DNA of 52,330 nucleotides from Actinomycetota bacterium (GTDB taxonomy: Bacteria; Actinomycetota; Actinomycetes; Nanopelagicales; Nanopelagicaceae), in NCBI GenBank assembly GCA_009698845.1, contig WLPI01000003.1, positions 1 to 52,330 of the forward strand, written 5' to 3'. The notes under the pieces are model-generated. The model was given only the letters and a program-made list of their open reading frames with translations, ran no database searches and was not told the origin of the DNA. Position numbers and translations under genes: made by a program. Of this stretch, positions 850-3,029 are shown in pieces; within the stretch, counting starts at the first letter, position 1; each line of letters starts with the position of its first letter.

Positions 850-1449
850 CTATTTATCGAGTGCGGCCTCTGGGGAGATGACGGCTTGGGCGACCTCTTT
901 CATAGTCAATCTACGGTCCATGGCAGCTCGTTGAATCCATGAAAATGCTTCGGGTTCTGAGAGGTTGAGGGCTTTCATCAATATTCCCTTTGCTCTGTCG
1001 ATGATTTTTCTTGTTTCAAGGCGTTCGTGAAGGTCTGCGACTTCCTCGGCAAGTGACCGCATTTGGGTATGTCTGCTGATTGCGATTTCAATTGCTGGAA
1101 CTAAATCCCCGATTGTAAATGGCTTAACAACATATGCCATGACACCAGCATCTCGCGCGCGATCGACAAGTTCTCGCTGGCTAAATGCAGTGAGCATTAA
1201 TACAGGTGCAATGGAAATGATTTTCTCTGCTGCTGAAATTCCATCAAGAACTGGCATCTTTACATCGAGAATTGCCAGATCTGGTTGATGTTCTGTTGCA
1301 AGAGCAATTGCTTCTTCACCGTTAGTTGCTTGTGCGATGACGTGATAACCGGCTTCTTCCAACATCTCAACTAAATCCATACGAATCAGAGCTTCATCCT
1401 CGGCAACGAGAATGCGCACCGGCGATTTCGTTGTTGCATCTTTGCTCAT
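850..1449 (-). CDS. pdtaR: Response regulator with C-terminal ANTAR RNA-binding domain (PdtaR/Rv1626-like)
   Basis: Receiver motif VRILVAEDEALIRMDLVEML...LAILDVKMPVLDG plus ANTAR-type C-terminus TRKIIDRAKGILMKALNLSEPEAFSWIQRAAMDRRLTMKEVA. Confidence 0.88.
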   Translation of the reverse strand: MSKDATTKSPVRILVAEDEALIRMDLVEMLEEAGYHVIAQATNGEEAIALATEHQPDLAILDVKMPVLDGISAAEKIISIAPVLMLTAFSQRELVDRARDAGVMAYVVKPFTIGDLVPAIEIAISRHTQMRSLAEEVADLHERLETRKIIDRAKGILMKALNLSEPEAFSWIQRAAMDRRLTMKEVAQAVISPEAALDK

Positions 1450-1450
1450 G

Positions 1451-1523
1451 TGCCTCGAGTCGGATTCGAACCGACACTATGCAGTGTTTGAGACTGCCCT
1501 CTCTACCGTTGGAGTACCGAGGC
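1451..1523 (-). tRNA. tRNA with anticodon CAA (tRNA-Leu by anticodon), short variable loop
   Basis: Manual fold: acceptor GCCTCGG/TCGAGGC, D-stem CTC/GAG, anticodon arm GCAGT-CTCAAAC-ACTGC, 5-nt variable loop ATAGT, T-arm GTCGG-TTCGAAT-CCGAC, discriminator A; CCA not encoded. Confidence 0.88.
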
Positions 1524-1533
1524 GTACTCCCCT

Positions 1534-1566
1534 ATCTTATGCGAAGACTTGGTCGTATGCGAAGAC
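1534..1566 (-). promoter_or_regulatory. Candidate promoter for tRNA/pdtaR: -10 TAAGAT (1534-1539), embedded in an 18-bp-period repeat of GTCTTCGCATA
   Basis: TAAGAT lies 10 nt before the tRNA 5' end; TTCGCA about 18 nt further upstream could act as -35. Confidence 0.45.
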
Positions 1567-1589: not shown

Positions 1590-3029
1590 TTAACGGTACG
1601 CAGCAACTACGCCGTTTACAGCATCGCCTACCCTGTGAACGCGCATCGCATTTGTAGAGCCTGGGATTCCCGGAGGCGAACCAGCGACAATCATTACTGC
1701 CTCACCAATTTCCGCGCGCTTTCCTTCAATGAGCATTTTATCTGCCTGTAGAACCATCTCATCAGTGTGCTTCACCATTGGTGTTACTAACGGCTCAACT
1801 CCCCACGAGAGAGAAAGGCGGTTGTAGGTTCCAATTTCTGGAGTGATTGCAATAATTGGAATTGGTGAACGAAGTCTCGAAATACGTCGTGCTGAATCCC
1901 CTGATTGCGTAAAAGTAACAAGGTACTTTGCACCAACGATCTGACCAACTTCTGCAGCCGCTTTAGTAATTGCGCCACCCTTTGTACGTGGGTTATTTGT
2001 TAATGGACGAATTCGATCGAGACCAAGTTCTTCAGTGCGTTCGATAATGCGGGCCATAGTTTCAACTGCTTGAATCGCAAATTCACCGATAGACGTTTCA
2101 CCAGAGAGCATCAGAGCGTCTGCCCCATCCAGGACTGCATTTGCGCAATCGGTTGCTTCTGCGCGAGTAGGCGAAGAATTTGAAATCATGGAATCGAGCA
2201 TCTGCGTAGCGACAATTACAGGTTTAGCTGCATCGCGAGAGAGTTCTACGCATCGTTTCTGGACCATCGGAACATCTTCAATCGGAAGCTCTACGCCAAG
2301 ATCTCCTCGAGCAACCATGATGCCATCAAAAGCTGCAATGATTTCTACAAGATTATCAACTGCTTGCGGTTTCTCGATTTTAGCAATTACCGGAATGCGT
2401 ATTCCAACTTCATCCATAATTGCATGGACATCACTTACATCTGCGGCGTTTCGCACAAATGAAAGCGCAATAAAGTCTGCACCGGCGCGAAGCCCCCAGC
2501 GGAGATCATCTTCATCTTTTTCAGACATTGCAGGAACAGATACAGCTACCCCAGGTAAGTTGATTCCTTTGTTATTGCTCACCACACCGGGTTGAATGCA
2601 TTTTGTAATCACATCGTTGCCCTTGACTTCAATAACTTCGACAGTCACTTTTCCATCATCAATCAGGATGCGATCGCCAACTTTGCAATCTCCTGGGAGG
2701 CCTTTATATGTCGTTCCTACACGATCCTTTGTGCCTGCAACTTCATCGGTTGTGATTGTGAAGATATCTCCACGAGCTAGTTCATGGGGGCCATTTTCAA
2801 AACGTGCTAAACGAATCTTTGGACCCTGAAGGTCAACAAGGACTGCAACAGCTTTGCCTGCTTCTTTGGCTGCCGCACGCACATTATTGAGTCGAAGCTG
2901 GTGCTCTTCATAAGACCCGTGGGAAAGATTCAAGCGCGCCATATTCATGCCAGCTGCAATGAGTTCCTTCACTTTCTCTGGAGACTCAACTGCTGGACCC
3001 ATGGTGCAAACTATTTTCGCGCGGCGCAT
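1590..3029 (-). CDS. pyk: Pyruvate kinase
   Basis: MRRAKIVCTMGPAVESPEKV...MNMARLNLSHG...VMVARGDLGVELP...ATQMLDSMI; full length 479 aa. Confidence 0.97.
   Translation of the reverse strand: MRRAKIVCTMGPAVESPEKVKELIAAGMNMARLNLSHGSYEEHQLRLNNVRAAAKEAGKAVAVLVDLQGPKIRLARFENGPHELARGDIFTITTDEVAGTKDRVGTTYKGLPGDCKVGDRILIDDGKVTVEVIEVKGNDVITKCIQPGVVSNNKGINLPGVAVSVPAMSEKDEDDLRWGLRAGADFIALSFVRNAADVSDVHAIMDEVGIRIPVIAKIEKPQAVDNLVEIIAAFDGIMVARGDLGVELPIEDVPMVQKRCVELSRDAAKPVIVATQMLDSMISNSSPTRAEATDCANAVLDGADALMLSGETSIGEFAIQAVETMARIIERTEELGLDRIRPLTNNPRTKGGAITKAAAEVGQIVGAKYLVTFTQSGDSARRISRLRSPIPIIAITPEIGTYNRLSLSWGVEPLVTPMVKHTDEMVLQADKMLIEGKRAEIGEAVMIVAGSPPGIPGSTNAMRVHRVGDAVNGVVAAYR

Follow-up and report, generated by a model that had tools for sequence, protein, structure and literature searches.

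Spacing between tRNA-Leu(CAA) and pdtaR in Nanopelagicaceae suggests a bacterial version of mitochondrial tRNA punctuation

Analysis of a minus-strand locus in the window (the whole stretch of DNA that was analysed, 52,330 nucleotides) suggests, with a probability of about 0.8, that the arrangement of a tRNA-Leu(CAA) gene and the pdtaR-like gene behind it is a bacterial version of mitochondrial tRNA punctuation. According to this model, a transcript that starts just before the tRNA, or that reads through from the pyruvate kinase gene pyk, would carry tRNA-Leu(CAA) followed by pdtaR. RNase P would trim the 5’ end of the tRNA, and a candidate actinobacterial endonuclease would cut on its 3’ side, separating position 74 from position 75. 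C74 would be completed to CCA by the CCA-adding enzyme, which is present, and the downstream product, starting exactly with AUG (GUG in some relatives), would be translated as a leaderless mRNA. About a dozen other Nanopelagicaceae genes may use the same design. We infer that the tRNA serves as the 5’ ‘leader’ of the pdtaR transcript, and this role is strongly supported because the start of pdtaR is pinned to the tRNA end throughout the family, neither an in-frame start codon nor a suitably placed -10 box was found inside the tRNA, and an SD-like stretch appears where the leader is longer.

The tRNA-Leu(CAA)-pdtaR locus

The tRNA-Leu(CAA) gene lies at 1451..1523 on the minus strand (73 nt with a 5-nt variable loop; ARAGORN and Rfam RF00005, 54.2 bits) and is kept across Nanopelagicaceae. 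Both ARAGORN and RF00005 placed its discriminator A at 1451. Positions 74-76 are C-A-T, which means that CCA is not encoded, and C74 at position 1450 (minus strand) is the sole encoded base of the CCA end. The ATG of the pdtaR-like ORF (850..1449, minus strand, 199 aa) follows at 1449-1447, a start that is conserved in relatives. Pfam matches to REC (PF00072, residues 13-120, 2.8e-25) and to a C-terminal ANTAR domain (PF03861, residues 138-191, 1.5e-23) fit the PdtaR architecture. These results agree with an earlier note on this DNA, which had placed the discriminator, the single C and the ATG at the same positions, had reported that CCA is not encoded, and had described the regulator as a pdtaR-like ANTAR protein. 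It had also seen no room for a Shine-Dalgarno sequence outside the tRNA, and indeed only tRNA sequence plus one C lies upstream of the start.

A -10-like TAAGAT that the same note had reported 10 nt upstream of the tRNA was found at 1534..1539 (minus strand). It is likely the promoter of the tRNA-pdtaR transcript, although such a hexamer is by itself a weak indication. Similarly, about three in four relatives have a TANNNT at a distance of 10-25 nt upstream of the tRNA at the pdtaR locus, which weakly suggests a promoter there. The tRNA and pdtaR are on the same strand, with no promoter-like hexamer at the ATG, and their co-transcription is plausible. The pyk gene lies upstream on that strand (1590..3029), its stop codon is 11-125 nt from the tRNA in relatives, and read-through from pyk into the tRNA and pdtaR is possible.

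Judged by its pdtaR, the window genome falls close to Candidatus Planktophila versatilis (Nanopelagicaceae, acI); its assembly is 80% complete and consists of 75 contigs. We also observed that the 5’ flank of the tRNA, GGAGTAC, could pair perfectly with GTACTCC of the D arm (window 1511-1530), a pairing that would rival the acceptor stem and was seen by eye in the close relatives L031 and L038 only.

Conservation of the 1-nt spacing at pdtaR

The earlier note had proposed that conservation of the spacing be checked in related genomes, and the spacing was found to be conserved. Of 296 genomes of the order, 213 contained the exact string of tRNA end, C and RTG; it was present in 89 of the 108 genomes of high quality and was represented in 13 of the 17 genera. 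A reversed control pattern gave 0 matches; the spacing is beyond chance. We then considered the 81 distinct loci of the family with a recognisable pdtaR. An ATG or GTG was present exactly 1 nt after the discriminator (+1) in 68 of them, with 58 ATG, 10 GTG and 0 TTG. The distance from this codon to the conserved REC motif varied from 3 to 21 codons and was in frame throughout the 68 loci, indicating that the tRNA end, rather than the protein core, fixes the position of the start. In several relatives, no more than 3-4 codons separate the ATG from the REC motif and there is no other start, which disfavors the in-frame GTG that the earlier note had considered as an alternative.

In the 13 exceptional loci, the first possible start was 10-50 nt from the tRNA, and all except L134 contained an SD-like purine stretch recognized by eye, e.g. 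GAAAGGAT, GGAAGG or AAAAAGG. Thus, the locus appears in two states, having either a leader with a Shine-Dalgarno sequence or no leader. In L134 and L044 (G001), an ATG following the tRNA meets an in-frame stop after 7 codons (MTIKTRM*), and pdtaR seemingly restarts at a GTG located 28 nt past the tRNA, as if a leaderless mini-ORF had been retained.

Order genomes that lack the string were sampled as well. Twelve of the 25 gave no match to the tRNA at all, which probably reflects assembly gaps, and in others the tRNA was inverted or adjoined another gene. pdtaR is not behind tRNA-Leu(CAA) in genera g28, g30 and g37; in g28 and g30 the tRNA lies between pyk and pdtaR in inverted orientation. The tRNA-Leu(CAA) of Streptomyces adjoins pdtaR too, on the opposite strand. 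The inverted tRNA in these three groups suggests that the co-directional, punctuated form is probably derived.

C74, the predicted cut and other origins of the pdtaR 5’ end

We surveyed 126 tRNAs, read from genome stretches, in three complete genomes of three genera (G014, G095 and G125). C74 was encoded in 125 of the 126. Among the 89 CCA-less tRNAs, 88 had C74, and position 75 was C in only 4. Such retention of C74 where CCA is absent is expected if processing retains this base. Mapping of 5’ ends in P. acnes, which has no obvious tRNase Z (PMC3848588), and in S. coelicolor (PMC4681348) showed tRNAs cut on the 3’ side between the first and the second C of CCA. These inter-C cuts were mapped at CCA-encoding tRNAs, and for CCA-less tRNAs the same studies reported only cuts close to the 3’ end or a few nt beyond it (PMC3848588, PMC4681348). 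The retention of C74 together with the actinobacterial maps suggests that the cut probably falls after C74, which in the window would be between position 1450 and the A of the pdtaR ATG. The downstream RNA would therefore begin with AUG or GUG and be exactly leaderless. A leaderless mRNA with a 5’-monophosphate could be unstable.

The earlier note had proposed that the tRNA is the leader and that RNase Z releases a C-AUG mRNA. Sequence comparison strongly supports the first part, in which 3’ processing of the tRNA would yield a leaderless pdtaR mRNA, but neither the nuclease nor the C-AUG end was borne out. Cleavage by RNase Z after the discriminator is how CCA-less tRNAs are classically matured in other bacteria and would leave a 1-nt leader on pdtaR. 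However, a search of 11 Nanopelagicaceae genomes, among them the 80%-complete one of the window, found no full-length canonical RNase Z (TIGR02651); these genomes gave either no match or scores of 19-30 bits, with the best matches lying within larger ORFs, as compared to 245-282 bits in several other Actinomycetes. Furthermore, a cut after the discriminator leaves the conservation of C74 unexplained, and start codons at +2 to +5 were less effective in mycobacteria (PMC4633059). We therefore consider this route unlikely.

Alternatively, an unprocessed tRNA-mRNA might be translated using GAGG of the acceptor stem as a Shine-Dalgarno sequence, in which case folding of the tRNA would control translation. 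In the window and in many relatives, this GAGG does lie 3 nt before the AUG (CGAGGCAC-AUG). However, it is too near the AUG and is inside the acceptor stem, CGGGGC takes its place at many +1 loci, other tRNA-gene pairs have unrelated acceptor sequences, and the loci with a real leader bear separate SD-like stretches. A Shine-Dalgarno sequence inside the tRNA was rejected because it is not conserved and is too close to the AUG, and we regard this explanation as slightly less probable than cleavage by RNase Z.

Less probable again is a promoter of pdtaR within the tRNA gene, from which a leaderless primary transcript would start at the ATG. Leaderless-type promoters do occur in this genome: pyk has TAAGGT exactly at -12 of its ATG, and 6 of the 25 window genes examined, pyk included, had TANNNT at -12 or -13 from the listed start. 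Promoter-made leaderless genes thus look common in the genome, but pdtaR is not among them. No TANNNT was present at -9 to -16 of the start in any of the 68 +1 pdtaR loci, which argues against a leaderless promoter inside the tRNA at these loci, and at many different tRNAs it is C74 that sets the position of the start. An in-frame start inside the tRNA was rejected, as 0 of the 68 loci had one.

Other tRNA-gene pairs and known systems

To the earlier note’s account of the locus, the survey of 126 tRNAs adds that the same spacing recurs after many other tRNAs. Counting as a gene start any ATG or GTG of an ORF of at least 70 aa, we found 11 starts at +1 and 3 over +2 to +20 (binomial p = 1.5e-12 against uniform placement over 20 positions), and all 11 RTG codons at +1 opened such an ORF. 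The least probable explanation is that genes crowd tRNAs by coincidence in these streamlined genomes (1.2-1.4 Mb), with the true start or expression signal elsewhere; crowding would spread the distances, in contrast to the observed 11 versus 3, and it sits poorly with the relatives in which the ATG is so close to the REC core.

The family contains about 14 different tRNA-gene pairs with the +1 spacing, most of whose downstream genes are clearly assigned to families. Besides Leu(CAA)-pdtaR, the pairs with a family assignment are Ala(TGC)-cyclophilin, Ala(GGC)-SDR oxidoreductase, Gln(TTG)-glmU, Pro(GGG)-cardiolipin synthase/pgsA-like, Arg(TCG)-Sbt_1 transporter, Arg(TCT)-oligoribonuclease, Leu(CAG)-GDPD, Leu(GAG)-apt, Asn(GTT)-ACT protein or DoxD/Rieske protein, and Ser(GCT)-FAD oxidoreductase (partial). 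Ala(GGC)-leucyl-tRNA synthetase was identified by reading the sequence only, and Ile(GAT) is followed by a small ORF of 38-41 aa. The window’s own genome has at least 3 pairs, namely pdtaR, a cyclophilin gene starting with GTG (L003), and leuS starting with GTG (L013, cut by the contig end). A special coupling of tRNA maturation to an RNA-binding ANTAR regulator, as the earlier note had suggested, is not indicated, and we downgraded ANTAR-specific regulation since the genes for cyclophilin, LeuRS, GlmU, Apt, oligoribonuclease, a cardiolipin synthase-like protein and other housekeeping functions have the same arrangement. In G000 contig 70 (L005), tRNA-Lys(TTT) ends with CC-ATG, so that the start codon overlaps the A of CCA; this ATG opens an ORF of more than 233 codons.

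A pattern of T-arm, 11 nt and C-RTG had at least one match in 40 of 40 high-quality family genomes. It was also present in 39 of 80 genomes of a class sample that includes the genus, where most tRNA matches outside the family open no long ORF, and in 52 of 150 genomes of a phylum sample, mostly without a long ORF where checked. However, tRNA-Gln(TTG)-C-RTG-glmU with the same exact spacing was found in four non-family genomes (L281, L414, L415 and L427), ruling out strict confinement to the family. We consider it somewhat probable that Nanopelagicaceae, and several Actinomycetota lineages at least at tRNA-Gln-glmU, generally make leaderless mRNAs through an RNase Z-independent endonuclease cut after C74, which would tie the expression of a dozen housekeeping genes to tRNA maturation.

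To our knowledge, gene starts at tRNA ends are otherwise known mainly from mitochondria. In animal mtDNA, tRNAs abut reading frames and their excision creates mRNA 5’ ends that are essentially leaderless; at the Nanopelagicaceae loci, tRNAs likewise abut reading frames with no room for a leader. The systems differ in that the present one is on a bacterial chromosome, where only 2-5 of the 39-46 tRNAs per complete genome directly abut a gene, a minority, whereas most mitochondrial genes are separated by tRNAs. In addition, most Nanopelagicaceae genes still rely on promoters of their own for expression, and the mitochondrial cut is made by the RNase Z ELAC2, whereas the Nanopelagicaceae cut is likely made after C74 by another candidate enzyme.

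Mycobacteria translate leaderless mRNAs efficiently, from AUG or GUG only. The leaderless mRNAs of Mycobacterium, Streptomyces and P. acnes (PMC4633059, PMC3848588, PMC4681348) have a 5’ AUG or GUG and no Shine-Dalgarno sequence, and the +1 pdtaR loci similarly start only with AUG or GUG and have no separate Shine-Dalgarno sequence upstream. However, in the known actinobacterial examples the 5’ end is a transcription start site preceded by a -10 box, whereas at the present loci it would be generated by processing of the tRNA. Leaderless mRNAs attributed to MazF in E. coli, which are disputed (PMC9031893), are also made by RNA cleavage, but MazF is a stress toxin that cuts within leaders and does not act in tRNA maturation as proposed here.

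A bacterial tRNA-mRNA operon is known from E. coli, where tRNA genes precede tufB. As predicted for the present locus, operons of this type carry tRNA and mRNA on one transcript, but they keep an mRNA leader and a Shine-Dalgarno sequence, whereas the +1 loci of Nanopelagicaceae would retain none. In our literature searches, which covered few of the subscription journals, bacterial mRNAs punctuated by tRNAs were not described. While tRNA punctuation itself is known, what would be new here is that it yields leaderless mRNAs in bacteria.

If the model is correct, mitochondrial-type punctuation with release of leaderless mRNAs evolved also in free-living bacteria, and the retention of C74 and the odd actinobacterial cut between the Cs gain a consequence for gene expression. 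It would also explain the expression of genes without promoters or Shine-Dalgarno sequences in bacteria that rank among the most abundant in fresh water, predict exact mRNA 5’ ends at many loci, and provide a genetic handle on the putative tRNA 3’ endonuclease.

Finally, the tRNA-Leu(CAA) lacks the long variable arm of class II tRNAs, a feature that the earlier note had overlooked; in the same genomes, ARAGORN gave lengths of 82-87 nt for the UAG and GAG tRNA-Leu. The two tRNA-Leu that decode UUR in these genomes (CAA and UAA) are without the long arm and about 73 nt in length (also in L102, L350 and L377), yet their D stem of 3 bp is still class II-like. Where tRNA-Leu(CAA) adjoins pdtaR in other Actinomycetes, including the Streptomyces-type loci L155-L195, ARAGORN gave either a short form of 74-77 nt or a long one of 83-88 nt.
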